38,952 nucleotides of DNA from a virus. The stretch covers positions 1 through 38,952 of IMG/VR virus record IMGVR_UViG_3300028794_000012. The stretch is one strand, 5' to 3'. The translations under genes were made by a program, and so were the position numbers. This document shows positions 24,599 through 30,746 of this stretch, one piece after another. Positions within the stretch are counted from its first letter, which is position 1. Every line of letters starts with the position of its first letter. The notes under the pieces were generated by a model. The model worked only from the letters and a program-made list of their open reading frames with translations, was not told the DNA's origin and did no database searches.

Positions 24599-24630
24599 TC
24601 GCGAACATTACTTCTCCTATAATGAGACCC
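24599..24630 (+). promoter_or_regulatory. Cassette promoter P1
   Basis: TCGC at 24599-24602, TTAC at 24608-24611, TATAAT at 24618-24623 followed by GAGACCCC. The distance from TCGC to TATAAT is exactly 15 bases, as in the five other promoters of this family. It starts 2 bases after the holin stop. TTCTCCT (24612-24618) can pair with AGGAGAA (24637-24643), the ribosome site of the next gene. Confidence 0.75.
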
Positions 24631-24646
24631 CAATAAAGGAGAACCC

Positions 24647-24934
24647 ATGTTCACCTCGAAGACACCGATCGAACCAACGGCGCTAGACCACATCATCGAT
24701 GACCTGCTGACCGACATGCAAGCGTATCCACGCGACTCTGATGAGTACGCCAAGATGGCTGCCCAGTTCGTCAAGTTGTATCCTCTGAAAGACGCTGAGC
24801 GTCCAAAGACGATATCACCTGACGTTCTGGCAACCGTCGCGGCCAACCTCCTCGGAATCGCTGCGATTCTCTACCATGAACGCGCAGGTATCGTGACGAG
24901 TAAAGCCCTCGGCTTCGTACTGAAGCTTCGCTGA
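24647..24934 (+). CDS. Small conserved phage protein (cassette 1)
   Basis: Protein of 95 aa. An N-terminal helical part (LDHIIDDLLTDMQAYPRDSDEYAKMAAQFVKLYPL) is followed by ISPDVLATVAANLLGIAAILYHERAGIVTSKALGFVLKLR, with a short hydrophobic segment at about 60-76. This end (NLLGI-x-x-IL-x-HE, VTSKAL) is familiar from actinophage proteins of unknown function. The gene is 23 bases after the P1 -10 box and is followed by a long hairpin (24956-25009). It is one of five single-gene cassettes in this region. Confidence 0.78.
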   Translation: MFTSKTPIEPTALDHIIDDLLTDMQAYPRDSDEYAKMAAQFVKLYPLKDAERPKTISPDVLATVAANLLGIAAILYHERAGIVTSKALGFVLKLR

Positions 24935-24955
24935 ACTACCGACCCCCACGGATAT

Positions 24956-25009
24956 CTAAACACAGACGCTGTGTAAGCCCACCATAACTTACACGGCGTC
25001 TGTGTTTAG
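24956..25009 (+). terminator. Long hairpin, probable terminator
   Basis: Inverted repeat of 22 bases on each side (24956-24977 and 24988-25009) with a loop of 10 bases (CCCACCATAA). The only mismatch becomes a G-U pair in RNA. It has no long T run after the stem, so it is not a classic terminator, but its position 21 bases after a gene end and before the next promoter suggests termination or RNA protection. Its arms differ from those of the other four hairpins of the region. Confidence 0.6.
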
Positions 25010-25035
25010 CCAAAATGACATGGGTTATAAAATTT

Positions 25036-25078
25036 TGGTTGATCCTCGCAAAGAATACTGGGGCTATAATGAGACCCC
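25036..25078 (+). promoter_or_regulatory. Cassette promoter P2 with upstream pairing arm
   Basis: TCGC at 25046-25049 and TATAAT at 25065-25070, 15 bases apart, with AATAC in place of TTAC, and GAGACCCC after it. TGGTTGATCCT at 25036-25046 can pair with AGGAGAAACCA at 25085-25095 (9 of 11 pairs), which covers the ribosome site and the first base of the ATG of the next gene. Confidence 0.75.
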
Positions 25079-25094
25079 CTACTAAGGAGAAACC

Positions 25095-25364
25095 ATGAAC
25101 CGAAAGTTCAGGAACCTGATCGCCCAGACCAAAGAATACATCCACGAAAACCCGCTCGACGCCACGCTCTACGGATTCGCTATAATAGTCGGATCGATTG
25201 CCGTTTACCAACTCAACAAGAACAATGAGAAAAGTGAAACGGAAACGACCCTATTCATGAGCGAAACCGTTGGACGTCACATGTTCGACACCGGAGAATC
25301 GTACTTATTTGAAACGCCTCTGGGAGATCTGATCCTAACCCCAGTTCCAAAAGTATCCGAGTAA
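25095..25364 (+). CDS. Small membrane protein (cassette 2)
   Basis: Protein of 89 aa with a basic N-terminal helix (about 1-20), one membrane segment at about 23-40 (ATLYGFAIIVGSIAVYQL) and an acidic/Thr-rich C-terminus of about 45 residues. A strong ribosome site (AAGGAGA) and promoter P2 precede it, and a hairpin follows 10 bases after the stop. No family is recognised. Its single-promoter, single-gene arrangement suggests expression apart from the surrounding operon. Confidence 0.78.
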   Translation: MNRKFRNLIAQTKEYIHENPLDATLYGFAIIVGSIAVYQLNKNNEKSETETTLFMSETVGRHMFDTGESYLFETPLGDLILTPVPKVSE

Positions 25365-25373
25365 TCTCAATAG

Positions 25374-25404
25374 CCTAATACCCCAACACGGTATTTAGGT
25401 TTTC
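25374..25404 (+). terminator. Terminator hairpin A
   Basis: Arms CCTAATACC (25374-25382) and GGTATTTAGG (25390-25399), with one bulged A, around a CCAACAC loop, followed by TTTTC. This is the first of four related hairpins that end single-gene cassettes. Confidence 0.72.
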
Positions 25405-25434
25405 GCGGGTTTTACATGGGCTATAATGAACCCC
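25403..25434 (+). promoter_or_regulatory. Cassette promoter P3
   Basis: TCGC at 25403-25406, TTAC at 25412-25415 and TATAAT at 25422-25427; the 15-base distance is conserved. The downstream sequence is GAACCCC rather than GAGACCCC. GGGTTTT at 25407-25413 can pair with AGAACCC at 25446-25452 (one G-U pair), part of the ribosome site of the next gene. Confidence 0.75.
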
Positions 25435-25452
25435 ATCTACCAAGGAGAACCC

Positions 25453-25674
25453 ATGTTTCCCAGACATTCCTTCCAGGTCAAGATGGTCAAAGACAAGACC
25501 GAAACCGCACCAAACCCATTTCAGCTGTCCGACATTGACTTCCAGGCGATCGACACGATCATCAGGAAGTACGCGTTGGCAACTGCAATTGGCGTAGTGC
25601 TGATGTACGCCGCTGTCAAGACCATCGACACCACGAGCGAAGTGATTGTGAACAACACCAATCCGACTCGATGA
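25453..25674 (+). CDS. Small membrane protein (cassette 3)
   Basis: Protein of 73 aa with a Pro/Lys-rich N-terminus, a polar part (about 20-37) and one membrane segment at about 38-56 (RKYALATAIGVVLMYAAVK), then a short Thr/Asn tail. ATG 25453 is used because AAGGAG (25442-25447) is 5 bases upstream; the upstream ATG within the TATAATG box is not a start. It lies between promoter P3 and hairpin B. No family is recognised. Confidence 0.78.
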   Translation: MFPRHSFQVKMVKDKTETAPNPFQLSDIDFQAIDTIIRKYALATAIGVVLMYAAVKTIDTTSEVIVNNTNPTR

Positions 25675-25678
25675 TTTC

Positions 25679-25714
25679 AAAACCTCGATACCCCTAACAA
25701 GGTATTTAGGTTTT
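25679..25714 (+). terminator. Terminator hairpin B
   Basis: Arms AAAACCT and ATACC (25679-25692) pair with GGTAT and AGGTTTT (25701-25714), with a mismatched CG/TT pair inside. The loop is CCTAACAA, as in hairpins C and D. The T run is part of the arm. No cassette promoter lies between it and the next gene, so it may terminate only partly. Confidence 0.72.
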
Positions 25715-25731
25715 CATTTAAGGAGACGATC

Positions 25732-25872
25732 ATGCTCGATGCTATTGTATTTTTATATCAGCTGATTCTACTACTAGTACTTGGAGTTATCTGTTTGGTT
25801 GTGGCATTTGTTATTATTGCGGTCGTTTTCATAGCCATTCGTGAGTTTTTCAGGAGTCTGCTCAGAAATTAG
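25732..25872 (+). CDS. Small hydrophobic membrane protein
   Basis: Protein of 46 aa, almost entirely one long membrane segment (about 4-37: AIVFLYQLILLLVLGVICLV, then further hydrophobic residues) with a short basic end, FFRSLLRN. It has a good ribosome site (AAGGAG, 25720-25725) but no visible promoter of its own; its RNA may come from read-through of hairpin B. The next gene has its own promoter (P4). Too short for family assignment. Confidence 0.65.
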   Translation: MLDAIVFLYQLILLLVLGVICLVVAFVIIAVVFIAIREFFRSLLRN

Positions 25873-25873
25873 T

Positions 25874-25904
25874 TCGCAAGAATTACAAGTGTTATAATGA
25901 GAAG
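25874..25904 (+). promoter_or_regulatory. Cassette promoter P4
   Basis: TCGC at 25874-25877, TTAC at 25883-25886 and TATAAT at 25893-25898, with the 15-base distance conserved. Unlike the others it continues with GAGAAGA. A site ATGAGAAGA (25897-25905) is complementary to TCTTCTCAT (25981-25989) in the leader. It starts 2 bases after the stop of the preceding gene. Confidence 0.75.
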
Positions 25905-26022
25905 ATATGTAAGACTATCAAGGCGTAGAGGCATTCCTCTACCTACTAGTTACCTGTTTTGATAGGGCAGTAACTCTAGTTCTTCTCATATAAATTTTCC
26001 AACCCAATCCAGAGGAGCCCAC
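25905..26022 (+). promoter_or_regulatory. Structured leader, possible pseudoknot
   Basis: About 118 bases between promoter P4 and GTG 26023 without an ORF. Hairpin 1 is TAGAGG (25926-25931), CATT, CCTCTA (25936-25941). Hairpin 2 pairs AGTTAC (25948-25953) with GTAACT (25970-25975) and can be extended at both ends. Its loop contains TTGATAG (25959-25965), complementary to CTATCAA (25915-25921) upstream of hairpin 1, so both can form only as a pseudoknot. A leader regulator or a small RNA are both possible. No known riboswitch was recognised. Confidence 0.55.
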
Positions 26023-26460
26023 GTGTTCGAGATTACCATCGACGTCTTCACACTCATCGGGTTTTTGTTTTGTCTCTTCATCCTGTTCTGCCTGTGTTGC
26101 TTGGTGGGTTTCGTCACAATCATGTCGTGGGAATTCACGAGGAAGCATCGGAAGAATAGGTACGCGAGGCATCAGTCATCCGGTGAGCTCGAGGGAGTCA
26201 AGAAGGAACATGCGAATTTCCTTACTGAGCTCGAGGCTGCTGAGAAGCGAGCTGGACTACACAATACGGCGTATCCCGTACTCCGCGTACCGCAGCCTCC
26301 GCAAAAGTGGGAGCACGAAGATCGTCGTTTCAGTGATCAGGATATCGTCGATTTCCGTAATCGAGTCAACCCCGACGAACCTCCAACTCAAATCTACCCG
26401 TTCAATATGACAGGCCAGGAGGTAATCGATGCGACTCACCCCCTTTTTAAAAACCGCTGA
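26023..26460 (+). CDS. Membrane protein, unknown
   Basis: Protein of 145 aa from GTG 26023, with AGAGGAG upstream. One long membrane segment at about 7-35 (Cys/Phe/Leu-rich) is followed by a basic segment (WEFTRKHRKNRYARH) and a soluble, mostly helical C-terminal part with ELEGVKKEHANFLTELEAAEKRAGL and PPQKWEHEDRRF. The basic end after the segment points to a cytoplasmic C-terminus. It is expressed from P4 with the pseudoknot leader and overlaps the next gene by 32 bases. No family is recognised. Confidence 0.75.
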   Translation: MFEITIDVFTLIGFLFCLFILFCLCCLVGFVTIMSWEFTRKHRKNRYARHQSSGELEGVKKEHANFLTELEAAEKRAGLHNTAYPVLRVPQPPQKWEHEDRRFSDQDIVDFRNRVNPDEPPTQIYPFNMTGQEVIDATHPLFKNR

Positions 26461-27193
26461 GAAACTGTTCATCGACAATTCGCCGGCGATCCTGACAGCC
26501 GTCGGAGTTGTAGGGGCAGTTACAACGGCTGTGCTCACGGGGAAAGCCACTTACAAGTACATGGCTGAGCTAGCTGGAGAAGGGTATTACGATCGTGACT
26601 ACAGATTCGACAGATCCACGAAGGAGCACCTCGAGATCGCCTGGAAGCTCTACATACCAGCAGTGGGAACTGGCGTACTTACAATCGCAGCTATCGTCGG
26701 TGCGAATCGAATTGGCGCTCGTCGAGCTGCAGGTCTTGCAGCAGCATATTCTCTGTCAGAAAGAGCGTATCTCGAGTACAAGGAGAAGGTCGTTGAGAAA
26801 CTCGGCGAGAACAAAGAACGTGATCTCCGGGATGAACTCGCTCAAGATCGCGTCAATCGGAGCCCAGAAGGAGCTCGAGAAATTGTCATCGTTGGGACGG
26901 ATGTTCTCTGTCATGACGCATTCTCCGGTCGGTACTTTCAAAGTAGCATGGAAGCGCTTCGAAAGGCCGAAAACGAACTGAATTACCAGGTTCTGAACAA
27001 CATGTACGCTTCGCTAACCGATCTGTACGACTTACTTGGTTTGCCGAAGACAGCATATTCGGACGAAGTGGGTTGGAATGTCAACAATTCACTCAGTCTG
27101 AAGTTCTCCTCAGTCTTGTCTGAAGATGGACGACCCTGTCTCTCCTTCGAATTCGACACCACGCATATCCGGGACTATCACAAGTTCGGATAA
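26429..27193 (+). CDS. DUF6353-like phage membrane protein 1
   Basis: Protein of 254 aa. Two hydrophobic segments are at about 18-38 (SPAILTAVGVVGAVTTAVLTGKATYK) and 75-95 (IPAVGTGVLTIAAIVGANR), with AAYSLSERAYLEYKEKVVEKLGENKERDLRDELA after them and a C-terminal part with LNNMYASLTDLYDLLGLPKTAYSDEVGWNVN. It resembles the DUF6353 phage family and the protein encoded at 29859, which has the same order. AGGAGG (26417-26422) precedes ATG 26429. The family has no known function. Confidence 0.72.
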   Translation: MRLTPFLKTAEKLFIDNSPAILTAVGVVGAVTTAVLTGKATYKYMAELAGEGYYDRDYRFDRSTKEHLEIAWKLYIPAVGTGVLTIAAIVGANRIGARRAAGLAAAYSLSERAYLEYKEKVVEKLGENKERDLRDELAQDRVNRSPEGAREIVIVGTDVLCHDAFSGRYFQSSMEALRKAENELNYQVLNNMYASLTDLYDLLGLPKTAYSDEVGWNVNNSLSLKFSSVLSEDGRPCLSFEFDTTHIRDYHKFG

Positions 27194-27218
27194 CTCATCA
27201 ATCGAAATGGAGCCCCTC

Positions 27219-27296
27219 ATGATCGTGCTCTACACATTTCTGGCTCAGATCGTCGTCCTCGCAGGCATCGTCTGGTACAACGTGTCTCGCGGGTAG
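27219..27296 (+). CDS. Membrane microprotein of 25 aa
   Basis: MIVLYTFLAQIVVLAGIVWY followed by NVSRG: one membrane segment with a short basic end. GGAG (27209-27212) lies 6 bases before ATG 27219. An in-frame ATG at 27207 lacks a ribosome site. It lies between the DUF6353-like gene and promoter P5. Small size makes this call tentative. Confidence 0.5.
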   Translation: MIVLYTFLAQIVVLAGIVWYNVSRG

Positions 27297-27297
27297 C

Positions 27298-27330
27298 TCG
27301 CAGGTTTTACAGGCCATATAATGAGACCCC
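27298..27330 (+). promoter_or_regulatory. Cassette promoter P5
   Basis: TCGC at 27298-27301, TTAC at 27307-27310 and TATAAT at 27317-27322, followed by GAGACCCC; the 15-base distance is conserved. It starts 1 base after the stop of the preceding microprotein. Pairing of upstream sequence with the ribosome site is weak here. Confidence 0.75.
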
Positions 27331-27352
27331 ATCGCCTTCAAAGGAGATAGAC

Positions 27353-27529
27353 ATGAACGCCAAGCTCGCATCCGCGAAGAGGTTCGTTTCTGCCCACCGA
27401 GTCGCCATCGCCGTCACGGCAACCACAGCAGTGTGTGTTGCCCTGAACCAGATGGCCCTCAGGAGCCACAACGACTTCCTCAAGGAGAAGAACCTGTACG
27501 ACGAGTACTACACCCCCGACGCCGACTGA
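27353..27529 (+). CDS. Small membrane protein (cassette 5)
   Basis: Protein of 58 aa: basic N-terminal helix (MNAKLASAKRFVSAHR), membrane segment at about 16-34 (RVAIAVTATTAVCVALNQM), then LRSHNDFLKEKNLYDEYYTPDAD. AAAGGAG (27340-27346) is 6 bases before ATG 27353. Proteins with AKRFVxxHRVAIAVTATxAVC are known to me from actinophages, without function. It lies between P5 and hairpin C. Confidence 0.75.
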   Translation: MNAKLASAKRFVSAHRVAIAVTATTAVCVALNQMALRSHNDFLKEKNLYDEYYTPDAD

Positions 27530-27533
27530 TCTC

Positions 27534-27568
27534 AAAAGCCTAATACCCTAACAAGGTATTTAGGTTTT
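27534..27568 (+). terminator. Terminator hairpin C
   Basis: AAAAGCCTAATACC (27534-27547) and GGTATTTAGGTTTT (27555-27568) form a stem with one mismatch around the loop CTAACAA. It ends 37 bases before the next gene, which has no promoter of this family, so it may act as a partial terminator. Confidence 0.72.
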
Positions 27569-27605
27569 CGTTCTGCCCAAAAACACACCACAGGAGAAAA
27601 CGCAC

Positions 27606-28241
27606 ATGATCAACTGGCCCGTTACGTATGATGACCTCGAGACCGGCAAGTCGACCACGGAGTCGTTCTGGTTCAACCTGGACAAGCTCGAGATCGCAGA
27701 GTTCAACTTCGGCGCGAAGGGTGGTATGGCCGACCTCTTGCAGGGGATGAGCGAGACCTTGCAGCCCGACGAGATTTTCCCAGCGCTCAGGTCGATCGTC
27801 CGTCGGGCTTACGGTGTCCGGGACGGCGTTCGATTCCGGAAGTCCAAGGAGATGGCAGACGACTTCGAGAGTCACCCGGCCTTCGGTGAGTTGATCGTCG
27901 GTCTTCTGCAGCGGCCCACGGAACTGGTTACCTTCTTCGCGGGTATCATGCCCGGCGATGCGATCAACACGGCGGCGAAATTGAATTCGGAACTGAGTGC
28001 CAAGGGAATCTCCTTCGACAACGCGAAAGATGGCGAGATCGTCGGCAAGGTGGTCGAGGGCGAGACGCACAACGTCTTCAATCAGTTGCCGGCCGTCGAC
28101 GAGTCCGCATACGGTCCGGATGCCGTTGAGCTCCCACTCGAGCCGGGTGAGGGCTACACCGACAAGCAGATCGCGAACATGACCACCGAAGAACTTCGCG
28201 CAGCTCTCGCCAACCCGCGCAACCTCCGTACGCCCGAATAA
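27606..28241 (+). CDS. Conserved phage protein, tail-chaperone-like
   Basis: Protein of 211 aa. N-terminal VTYDDLETGKSTTESFWFNLDKLEIAEF and GGMADLLQGMSETLQPDEIFPALRSIVRRAYGVRDGVRFRKSKEMADDFESHPAFGELIVGLL, then ATELVTFFAGIMPG-like helices, resemble a phage protein that in Firmicutes phages lies near tail genes. Its C-terminal part ends with MTTEELRAALANPR. The Ala/Glu-rich end may be disordered. Here it lies away from the tail genes. The role is uncertain; the similarity is from memory. Confidence 0.62.
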   Translation: MINWPVTYDDLETGKSTTESFWFNLDKLEIAEFNFGAKGGMADLLQGMSETLQPDEIFPALRSIVRRAYGVRDGVRFRKSKEMADDFESHPAFGELIVGLLQRPTELVTFFAGIMPGDAINTAAKLNSELSAKGISFDNAKDGEIVGKVVEGETHNVFNQLPAVDESAYGPDAVELPLEPGEGYTDKQIANMTTEELRAALANPRNLRTPE

Positions 28242-28257
28242 CTATCGAAGGACAAAT

Positions 28258-28611
28258 ATGAGCAGCGAGATCGAGTCCGTCCAGGATGCGCTTCGCGTCG
28301 CCGAGGGAGTGAAAGACCTGGCCGAGCAGGAAGAATCAACGGTTGCTGAGGTCAAGGTCGGCATCAGTAATGCGGTCGGCTACATGCAGCAAATCGGAAA
28401 GTACTTCGAGGGGTTCGCCGGACTTCTTGTCAAGAACGGCATGTCGGCCTCGAAGCAGTCCAAGGCGGGTCAGGACGCGATCGAGATCGCAAAGAAGTTG
28501 GCCGCCACCACAAAACAGCTCGAGGAATTGGGCACGAAGTTCAAAGGCATTGCTGACGAAGCCGTCGATCTGATGTCGGCCATGCAGGACATCGTCAGCA
28601 GCGCGGAGTAG
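28258..28611 (+). CDS. Helical protein, unknown
   Basis: Protein of 117 aa, nearly all helix with Glu/Lys/Ala heptads: IESVQDALRVAEGVKDLAEQEESTVAEVKVGISNAVGYMQQIGKYF and AKKLAATTKQLEELGTKFKGIADEAVDLMSAMQDIVSS. It could be a small scaffold, chaperone or oligomer-forming protein. It has no Cys and no membrane segment. It is 16 bases after the preceding gene and probably in the same operon. Confidence 0.72.
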   Translation: MSSEIESVQDALRVAEGVKDLAEQEESTVAEVKVGISNAVGYMQQIGKYFEGFAGLLVKNGMSASKQSKAGQDAIEIAKKLAATTKQLEELGTKFKGIADEAVDLMSAMQDIVSSAE

Positions 28612-28618
28612 GAGCGAG

Positions 28619-28795
28619 ATGTACTTTGACGCTGTGGTAGACGCCGAACAGAATGTCTTGTGTAACGCCAGTCCGTGGGGCGTTCGGAAATGGCTGATCG
28701 ACAACTATGCATATGTCCAGAAGAAAGCCGATTTGATGGTGATCGATGGCAGGACACTCTTCTACTACAGCGTCGACGAATATCTCATGCCGTAA
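28619..28795 (+). CDS. Small protein, unknown
   Basis: Protein of 58 aa: MYFDAVVDAEQNVLCNASPWGVRKWLIDNYAYVQKKADLMVIDG and a C-terminal FYYSVDEYLMP. AGGAG (28610-28614) is 4 bases before ATG 28619. It has no membrane segment. It ends just before promoter P6 and its 13-base inverted repeat. No family is recognised. Confidence 0.7.
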   Translation: MYFDAVVDAEQNVLCNASPWGVRKWLIDNYAYVQKKADLMVIDGRTLFYYSVDEYLMP

Positions 28796-28797
28796 TC

Positions 28798-28860
28798 TGG
28801 GTGGTCCTTTCGCAGGATTTACTCAGCCTATAATGAGACCCCCTACGAAAGGACCACCCA
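28798..28860 (+). promoter_or_regulatory. Inverted repeat around promoter P6 and ribosome site
   Basis: Perfect 13-base inverted repeat: TGGGTGGTCCTTT (28798-28810) and AAAGGACCACCCA (28848-28860). The left arm lies upstream of the P6 -10 box (28829-28834), the right arm covers the ribosome site AAAGGA and the first base of the ATG at 28860. RNA from upstream would fold and hide this start; RNA from P6 (start about 28841) lacks the left arm. Confidence 0.78.
28810..28841 (+). promoter_or_regulatory. Cassette promoter P6
   Basis: TCGC at 28810-28813, TTAC at 28819-28822 and TATAAT at 28829-28834, followed by GAGACCCC; the 15-base distance is conserved. It lies between the arms of the inverted repeat 28798-28860. 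Confidence 0.78.
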
Positions 28861-29105
28861 TGACCAAGATCGAACTCGCCAAAGCTACTGTTTCGACGAT
28901 TGTTGCGTTTGGTGCTGGTCGTATCACCTACTCCATCCTCAACAATAACGTTGACGAGCCGGAGAACATTGCCCAAGCGGTAAGTGTTCCCGTCGCGTCA
29001 TTCGTGATTGCTGGGATGGCGGCAGATTACACGTCCCAGTACTCAGACAAGCTGATCGACGAAATCGTCGTCTGGTGGAAGACCAACGTCACGAAGAACG
29101 CCTGA
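28860..29105 (+). CDS. Small membrane protein (cassette 6)
   Basis: Protein of 81 aa with two hydrophobic segments, about 8-27 (KATVSTIVAFGAGRITYSIL) and 38-56 (AQAVSVPVASFVIAGMAAD), joined by an acidic loop (NNVDEPEN), and a soluble end with DKLIDEIVVWWKTN. ATG 28860 overlaps the right arm of the inverted repeat. Promoter P6 precedes and hairpin D follows it. No family is recognised. Confidence 0.78.
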   Translation: MTKIELAKATVSTIVAFGAGRITYSILNNNVDEPENIAQAVSVPVASFVIAGMAADYTSQYSDKLIDEIVVWWKTNVTKNA

Positions 29106-29117
29106 TCGTACCAAATC

Positions 29118-29152
29118 AAACTCGAATACCCCTAACAAGGTATTTGAGTTTT
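29118..29152 (+). terminator. Terminator hairpin D
   Basis: AAACTCGAATACC (29118-29130) and GGTATTTGAGTTTT (29139-29152) pair with one G-U pair around the loop CCTAACAA. Compared with hairpins B and C the outer stem changes from ACCT/AGGT to ACTC/GAGT on both sides, a compensatory change that supports a real RNA stem. The next gene has no promoter of this family. Confidence 0.75.
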
Positions 29153-29170
29153 CTATTGAAGTGAGGAAGT

Positions 29171-29858: not shown

Positions 29859-30746
29859 ATGAATCTCATCAAGCTCGTTCCACCTTCGGTGGTGAGTACC
29901 GTTGCTCGATCGGTACTCCAGACCCAGAAGCATTCGCCCAAGATCCTCTTCAGTGCCGGCCTCGTCGGAGCCGTGACGTCCACCGTTCTGGCTTGCCGGG
30001 CCACGTTGAAGCTCGATGAGGTTCTCGAGAACACGCAGAAGACCCTGATCGACATCGCGACGGTGATCGACCACGAGAAGTACACTGAAGAGGACCGGAC
30101 CAAGGACAAGGCTCTCGTCTACGTCAAGACGGGCGTGGCCATTGTCAAGCTGTACGGTCCGGCGATCACCATCGGTGCCATTTCCGTGACCTGCCTGGTC
30201 GGATCGCACCATATCCTGACGACTCGGAACGCCGGCCTGATGACCGCGTACGCCGCGCTCGAGAAGGGCTTCGAGGAATACCGTGGCCGGGTTCGTGCGG
30301 ATCTGGGCGATGACAAGGAGCGGGAGTTCCGCTACGGATCCGAGATCATTTCGGAGAAGGGCGAGGATGGCAAGAAGAACAAGATCACTCGAGTTGGTCA
30401 GAACGCGCCATCGGTCTACGCGAAGTTCTTCGACGAGACGTCCAGCTCGTGGGAACGTCGGCCGGAGCTGAACAAGGCGTTCCTGCGGTGCCAGCAGAAC
30501 TGGGCCAACGACAAGCTCATCGCCCAGAAGCACCTGTTCCTGAACGAGGTCTACGACATGCTCGGTCTCGATCGGACCGTGGCTGGGTCGATCGTCGGCT
30601 GGATCATCAGTCCGATCGGTGACAACTACGTCGATTTCGGCATCTTCGACGATTCCAGTGAGCGGATCCGGGACTTCATGAACGGTCACGAGGGGTCCGT
30701 GCTCCTCGACTTCAACGTCGATGGGGTCATCTACAACTTGATCTGA
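29859..30746 (+). CDS. DUF6353-like phage membrane protein 2
   Basis: Protein of 295 aa with two hydrophobic segments (about 28-48, KILFSAGLVGAVTSTVLACRATLK, and 100-122, AITIGAISVTCLVGSHHIL), then TRNAGLMTAYAALEKGFEEYRGRVRADLGDDKEREFRYG, and a C-terminal part with QKHLFLNEVYDMLGLDRTVAGSIVGWIISPIGDNYVDFGIFDD. Order and spacing match the protein at 26429, so the two are paralogues. Codons are strongly G/C-ending, more than in the copy at 26429. AAGGAG (29845-29850) precedes ATG 29859. Confidence 0.75.
   Translation: MNLIKLVPPSVVSTVARSVLQTQKHSPKILFSAGLVGAVTSTVLACRATLKLDEVLENTQKTLIDIATVIDHEKYTEEDRTKDKALVYVKTGVAIVKLYGPAITIGAISVTCLVGSHHILTTRNAGLMTAYAALEKGFEEYRGRVRADLGDDKEREFRYGSEIISEKGEDGKKNKITRVGQNAPSVYAKFFDETSSSWERRPELNKAFLRCQQNWANDKLIAQKHLFLNEVYDMLGLDRTVAGSIVGWIISPIGDNYVDFGIFDDSSERIRDFMNGHEGSVLLDFNVDGVIYNLI

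Follow-up and report, generated by a model that had tools for sequence, protein, structure and literature searches.

We analysed a 38,952-bp stretch of viral DNA, IMG/VR virus record IMGVR_UViG_3300028794_000012 (hereafter the window), in which six sites combine the tetranucleotide TCGC with a TATAAT box at a fixed distance. The six sites are quite probably promoters dedicated to a phage-encoded, single-chain two-barrel RNA polymerase of the protein family PHROG 4291, whose recognition of the sites we infer from its relatives. In related phages the same motif is found with the same rigid spacing, on the coding strand and in the same gene context, together with the gene for this polymerase. The first-pass annotation had placed TCGC exactly 15 bases 5′ of TATAAT at six positions, and all six were recovered there on the plus strand. 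They are listed here with the scores of a position weight matrix that is described below.

24599..24629, plus strand: promoter 1, TCGC GAACATT ACT TCTCC TATAAT GAGACC; exact match, matrix score 31.4; upstream of the open reading frame (ORF) 24647-24934
25046..25076, plus strand: promoter 2, TCGC AAAGAAT ACT GGGGC TATAAT GAGACC; exact match, matrix score 33.1; upstream of ORF 25095-25364
25403..25433, plus strand: promoter 3, TCGC GGGTTTT ACA TGGGC TATAAT GAACCC; exact match, matrix score 33.4; upstream of an ORF from about 25453 to 25674; adjoins the preceding terminator
25874..25904, plus strand: promoter 4, TCGC AAGAATT ACA AGTGT TATAAT GAGAAG; exact match, matrix score 39.0; upstream of a structured non-coding RNA
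27298..27328, plus strand: promoter 5, TCGC AGGTTTT ACA GGCCA TATAAT GAGACC; exact match, matrix score 35.5; upstream of the small ORF 27353-27529
28810..28840, plus strand: promoter 6, TCGC AGGATTT ACT CAGCC TATAAT GAGACC; exact match, matrix score 36.1; upstream of ORF 28860-29105

The exact pattern TCGC-N15-TATAAT thus occurs six times in the window (TCGC at 24599, 25046, 25403, 25874, 27298 and 28810), compared with a mean of 0.04 and a maximum of 1 in 100 dinucleotide shuffles. TCGC stands at this distance from six of the seven TATAAT hexamers on the plus strand and from neither of the two on the minus strand; the seventh plus-strand hexamer (25181) lies within an ORF. As the annotation had also stated, TTAC or ATAC follows 5 bp past TCGC, and GA directly follows TATAAT, at all six sites, in four of them as GAGACCCC. 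A TTGACA-like −35 element at spacers of 16–18 bp is indeed missing, with a best match of three of the six bases, and TG immediately 5′ of the box was found at a single site (25893).

The IMG/VR database was scanned with an exact pattern requiring TAC, and the motif counts rest on the matches listed. Among these, up to 8 copies were present per retrieved stretch. From 387 distinct sites, anchored by TCGC and TATAAT only, we obtained the consensus TCGC-A/G-n-R-A-W-W-W-ACA-n5-TATAAT-GA-R-A, followed by a weak CCCC. TCGC and TATAAT were 15 bp apart at 415 sites versus 0–6 sites at each other spacing from 5 to 35 bp, a count to which the choice of search pattern contributed in part. Yet the TAC that the search demanded is missing from 149 of these 415 sites (415 less 266). 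In full records the 15-bp distance holds for 12/12 matches of G024 and 8/8 of G042. When sites with both outer elements were considered, the gap between TCGC and ACA was 7 bp in 408 sites and at most one site showed any other gap, while 5 bp separated ACA from the box in 409 sites and any other gap occurred at most eight times. TCGC and TTAC had been named as the parts of the motif, and both are present, but ACA, ending 5 bp before the box, is equally fixed, and TTAC is the first part of the W-W-ACA seen in the relatives. A direct-repeat reading of TCGCA/TTACA with a 9-bp period was dropped as weak.

The position weight matrix was trained on the IMG/VR sites and used to scan named phages, where it detected 6 to 30 copies per phage, almost all on the coding strand. 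A start codon with a ribosome-binding site follows the box at a median of 27 nucleotides (interquartile range 24–32), and 77 of 558 sites lack one within 120 nucleotides. On the coding strand the upstream element occurs 58 times with the box and three times without it, one of the three having TATATT. A search of related phages had been suggested, with the expectation that the motif might occur only before small genes; it was found widely, in most cases in front of small genes, though tRNAs and structured RNAs are preceded by it as well. An extreme example is Arthrobacter phage Qui (L128), with 30 promoter copies in 50 kb, most of which precede one small gene each in a consecutive series, giving every such gene a promoter of its own. 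The matrix scan found no motif copy in the phiC31 genome, which ruled out the phiC31 early promoters as a precedent, the plasmids searched gave no motif match, and our literature search found no report of this motif or of a promoter for these phages. The rigid three-part spacing, the strand bias, the position about 27 nucleotides before start codons, the scarcity of freestanding copies and the conservation across many contigs strongly support the proposal that all six sites belong to a single special class of promoter, which is common to a widespread phage group.

The named phages that carry the motif encode a protein of about 900 amino acids near one end of the assembled genome, with a full-length match to PHROG 4291. 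Its gene was detected in 23 of the 24 motif-picked IMG/VR contigs of at least 40 kb (50 records were picked in all), and the only contig without it has one poor, chance-like site. Genus tallies in phage records ran in parallel (Gordonia 55/55, Streptomyces 54/54, Rhodococcus 4/4, Arthrobacter 80/95), and every scanned named genome with the polymerase has motif copies on the coding strand. Copies are present in phages of Lactococcus, Bifidobacterium, Curtobacterium and Microbacterium, where BLAST gave none or few. Bifidobacterium phage BitterVaud1 was rejected as a polymerase-less negative control, as it has both the polymerase and the motif. By Pfam, the PHROG 4291 protein is the only helix-turn-helix (HTH) protein among the non-virion genes common to the lineage.

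The protein has HTH signatures near residues 80–115 and at its C-terminus, and a weak match to RNA-dependent RNA polymerase in the middle. SGADFDGD, the catalytic motif of cellular-type RNA polymerases, is present in 117 of 117 aligned PHROG 4291 members, and with it the catalytic DxDGD signature. Since a sequence search of the PDB with the polymerase gave only short HTH-like or helical matches, a fold comparison was needed. An AlphaFold model built from 20 relatives reached moderate confidence, with a predicted local distance difference test score (pLDDT) of 74 and a predicted template modelling score (pTM) of 0.54. Its best PDB matches in Foldseek were QDE-1 (E 1.8e-6), P74 gp62, the P23-45-type gp64 and plant RDR2 (E 1.8e-6 to 2.7e-4). 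The PHROG 4291 protein is thus predicted to be a single-chain two-barrel RNA polymerase with a QDE-1-like fold, a fold call that is good, though not at high resolution.

The names given to the polymerase by depositors conflict, ranging from gp106 or tail fiber, structural protein and D5 factor to RNA-dependent RNA polymerase and HTH protein. In Lactococcus phage 1706 and Rhodococcus phage ReqiPoco6 its depositors label it structural, which would agree with packaging of the enzyme in the virion, a possible route of delivery; the literature search found no paper on the virion proteins of 1706. The polymerase is gp75 in 1706 and gp92 in phage Tanis. Its gene in Tanis is followed by gp93 (L130:10310-10558; 82 amino acids, PHROG 4303), which was present in 12 of 12 relatives compared and is a possible partner of the polymerase. 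Members of the polymerase family are further encoded in Lachnospiraceae and other Clostridial genomes (L254-L293), including those of Hungatella hathewayi and [Ruminococcus] torques, where they probably belong to prophages.

Indirect evidence on the position of the transcription start comes from RNAs located directly behind the promoter. Five tRNA or tRNA-like genes (L029, L089, L107, L123 and L246) have their 5′ ends 3, 3, 4, 4 and 7 nucleotides past the box. A sigma-type start 6–8 nucleotides past the box would cut off at least four of these five tRNAs, and such a start is therefore disfavoured. Behind other sites lie RNAs devoid of ORFs, in which the first bases past the box pair with the 3′ end just before the T-run. 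Complementarity of 8 bases with the RNA 3′ ends was found at 8–16 sites for each offset from 0 to 5, versus about one in permuted controls. In orthologous RNAs the fifth pair is A-U in Tanis and C-G in Odesza, which is one compensatory change. The pairing line is not uniform: in the ReqiPepy6 orthologue it starts only about 5 bases past the box, and at some sites it extends 2–5 bases into the box, as expected if the T-run that follows is AT-rich. Pairing into the box means that the start is bounded to approximately the end of the box, not fixed to one base. A strict count of helices of at least 9 bp gave 23 sites versus about 7 in controls; as this excess is modest, most of the weight in the argument from pairing falls on the offset profile and the tRNA distances. 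This indirect evidence supports a start within about 0–3 nucleotides after the box and contradicts the earlier expectation of starts about 7 bases after TATAAT.

Further structured RNAs were observed behind promoters at window positions 25899-25987, at L120:29823 and 37829, L128:28012 and L123:23124, and in L160, L161 and L162. Their conserved cores include GGCGTA-hairpin-TACCTRCT, as well as CTAACCCTTGAGTC...TTGGAAGGTA, which is common to Gordonia and Rhodococcus phages. The small structured RNAs behind promoters had no match in Rfam where searched.

The first-pass annotation had suggested that the sites might be read by the host sigma factor with a phage activator. The sequence of the family sites differs from sigma-70 promoters in several respects. 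At least five of the six TTGACA bases at 16–18 bp were found at 0 of 563 family sites, versus 8 at random positions, and the TGn extended −10 element at 14 of 563. When the upstream element was used as the sole anchor, A-11 was conserved at 87% versus 96% for both T-10 and T-7; whereas A-11 and T-7 are expected to be the most conserved bases for sigma-70, A-11 is here among the least conserved −10 positions. Box variants seen with the upstream anchor include TTTAAT, TGTAAT, TCTAAT and TTAAAT.

The motif is common to phages of Actinobacteria, Lactococcus and Clostridia. Distant relatives of the Clostridial type have the form CGC-R-AAA-WWW-ACA-N5-NNTWAT-GRA, in which A-11 drops to 44% and the box reads, for example, CTTTAT, TCTAAT or TTTTAT; their upstream elements lie on one strand per genome in 28 of 28 cases, with the box at the exact distance in 25 of the 28. 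Two dialects exist among Lactococcus phages, YCAC...TATAGT-AGA in 1706 and TTTT...TATAAT-GAA in P118, each near-uniform within its genome, although the host species is the same. The P118-type polymerases alone (2 of 117) have lost the conserved Arg of the N-terminal recognition helix, as well as a conserved Ser; the loss of the Arg would be expected if that helix reads TCGC. Recognition of the sites by host sigma is unlikely, because there is no −35 element, A-11 is dispensable, the motif spans diverse hosts, two dialects coexist in Lactococcus and the starts appear to lie too close to the box.

The reader is in our reading the PHROG 4291 polymerase rather than another phage factor acting with host RNA polymerase. 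The latter alternative, in which TATAAT is contacted by the main sigma while an activator of the phage sits on TCGC...ACA and stands in for the −35 contact in a MotA-like manner, draws on the identity of the window box with the sigma-70 consensus and on the fixed-spacing element near −30 without a −35, which is what such activators use. We nevertheless regard it as unlikely, though the strongest of the alternatives, since the polymerase is the only HTH protein common to all motif phages by Pfam (uncharacterised core proteins remain), A-11 is dispensable, tRNA 5′ ends lie 3–4 nucleotides past the box, the same motif serves phages of very different hosts and the dialects differ between two phage lineages of one host.

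A repressor-binding site of the phage, whether operator or stoperator-like, that overlaps a promoter would account for the many copies in one orientation near gene starts, as described for cluster A and CA stoperators (PMC13313380). The idea of an operator doubling as a promoter does not fit the near absence of upstream elements without a box (the 3 versus 58 given above), nor the lack of drift in the spacing, and no repressor was found in the lineage core; we consider it very improbable. Ordinary host promoters read by host sigma alone, with a spacer conserved by chance, would explain the TATAAT consensus but neither the depletion of −35 and extended −10 elements nor the rigid three-part spacing in phages of different hosts, and can hardly be credited. 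As little credit goes to a role of the stretch as RNA, i.e. a processing site or 5′ leader element, since most of the conservation lies 5′ of the inferred start and the stretch comes straight after terminator-like hairpins, with isolated small genes, tRNAs and RNAs behind it, even though GAGACCCC is itself conserved and lies within the leader.

Several observations weigh against recognition by the PHROG 4291 polymerase. The motif and the polymerase are joined by shared descent, as the relatives also share virion and replication genes, and co-occurrence alone can therefore not name the reader. The PHROG 4291 gene was not found in the 38,952-bp window contig itself. The box in most actinophages is the sigma-70 consensus TATAAT, as expected of a host-read promoter, and the change in the recognition helix is one evolutionary event. 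In addition, TM-scores to known polymerases are low (0.34) despite the good E-values, two of the five tRNA calls are odd, with unusual anticodons, and two of ten 20-kb stretches from distant polymerase-bearing contigs contain no motif copy, where the right region was perhaps not covered.

The contig appears to be cut short, which would explain the missing polymerase gene, since all five core genes of the right-end block are absent: the window also lacks homologues of the helicase, VRR nuclease, Cas4-type exonuclease and gp93 that flank the polymerase gene elsewhere. The window's own virus would thus have the PHROG 4291 gene, with the contig cut before it. The window encodes a terminase, a portal protein, a capsid-protease fusion, a tape measure protein and a primase-polymerase, and these genes place it in a phage lineage whose members infect Gordonia (cluster DJ), Streptomyces, Arthrobacter, Rhodococcus, Curtobacterium and Microbacterium and, more distantly related, Bifidobacterium and Lactococcus. 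Streptococcus records were also present in the capsid tally. Judged from the closest relatives, the host of the window virus is likely an actinobacterium.

In the mechanism that we propose, the polymerase would read the upstream TCGC...ACA element, probably via its N-terminal HTH, open the AT-rich TATAAT box and start RNA about 0–3 nucleotides past the box, at the conserved GAGA. Each promoter would then drive a small gene or small RNA bounded by terminator-like hairpins, and the genes served may be early genes. We also lean towards the broader view that a promoter class read by HTH-bearing single-chain two-barrel polymerases, with the start right past the AT box, exists in lytic actinophages, Lactococcus phages and Clostridial prophages.

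The promoters of the window serve small ORFs bounded by terminator-like hairpins and, in one case, a predicted RNA:

24647..24934, plus strand: small ORF of 95 amino acids behind promoter 1; from the ORF list, inferred gene
24955..25009, plus strand: long terminator-like hairpin between gene 1 and promoter 2; fold −35.7 kcal/mol
25095..25364, plus strand: small ORF of 89 amino acids behind promoter 2; from the ORF list, inferred gene
25372..25403, plus strand: terminator-like hairpin with T-run, adjoining promoter 3; from folding
25453..25674, plus strand: small ORF behind promoter 3; start picked by ribosome-binding site (the mechanical ORF start, 25426, overlaps TATAAT)
25681..25714, plus strand: terminator-like hairpin with T-run; from folding
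25899..25987, plus strand: predicted small structured RNA, in which GAGAAGA right after TATAAT pairs with the final TCTTCTC; fold −24.3 kcal/mol
27353..27529, plus strand: small ORF of 58 amino acids behind promoter 5; read from the sequence
27535..27571, plus strand: terminator-like hairpin with T-run, 3′ of the promoter 5 gene; from folding
28860..29105, plus strand: small ORF of 81 amino acids behind promoter 6; from the ORF list and the sequence
29117..29155, plus strand: terminator-like hairpin with T-run, 3′ of the promoter 6 gene; from folding

The RNA at 25899-25987 had no match in Rfam, and partial relatives of it were found at L042 and L128. The window also encodes two DUF6353 proteins (26429-27193 and 29859-30746), whose family, PHROG 2152, is in the shared core of the lineage.

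The single-chain relatives of the RNA polymerase of cells are considered similar to its ancestor, and little has been established on how they find promoters. A concrete promoter with a rigid three-part code and hundreds of natural variants, together with a candidate enzyme, makes this question directly testable. The candidate occurs in easily grown phages of Gordonia, Arthrobacter, Streptomyces and Lactococcus and in genomes of cultured Clostridia, and the finding corrects the annotations of the polymerase as HTH protein, tail fiber, structural protein, D5 factor or RNA-dependent RNA polymerase. If recognition by this enzyme is true, it would add a further phage route to transcription without host sigma, beside the T7-like and jumbo-phage enzymes. 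A small enzyme made of one protein, with a promoter of its own, could also be useful for orthogonal expression in high-GC bacteria.

That phages encode polymerases with promoters of their own is already known; within the literature that we searched, the novelty lies in the present promoter and in the enzyme family proposed to read it. Thermus phage P23-45 has virion and non-virion single-chain two-barrel RNA polymerases, each with its own conserved motif upstream of phage genes, an assignment argued from ChIP-seq, cappable-seq and presence in relatives (PMC10770324). The likeness lies in a single-chain two-barrel enzyme tied to a motif, and P74 gp62 and the P23-45-type gp64 are among the Foldseek matches obtained here. 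The present system differs in its phages and sequence, in the HTH domains of the polymerase and in the rigid three-part promoter of about 30 bp. YonO of the SPbeta prophage is a single-chain phage RNA polymerase with a catalytic aspartate triad and two-barrel ancestry, whose promoter sequence was left open by its authors (PMC5467207). We set PHROG 4291 beside YonO by these shared traits only: the single chain, the catalytic aspartates and the two-barrel architecture. The virion polymerase gp66 of the crAss-like phage phi14:2 gave a weak match to the PHROG 4291 model (E 0.07), and QDE-1 was the top match; unlike the PHROG 4291 protein, gp66 is much larger and QDE-1 is eukaryotic. We know of no such promoter for gp66 or QDE-1.

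Two classical promoter types resemble the motif in their layout. Middle promoters of T4, with the MotA box, have an element near −30, a TATAAT-like box at near-fixed spacing and no −35, and they keep a true sigma −10 and the sigma start geometry. Unlike in T4, no MotA-like protein was found here. T7-type promoters have their start directly past a TATA stretch, at GA-rich sequence, and a reader made of one polypeptide. The T7-type polymerase has an unrelated fold, however, and the upstream element described here is different and longer.

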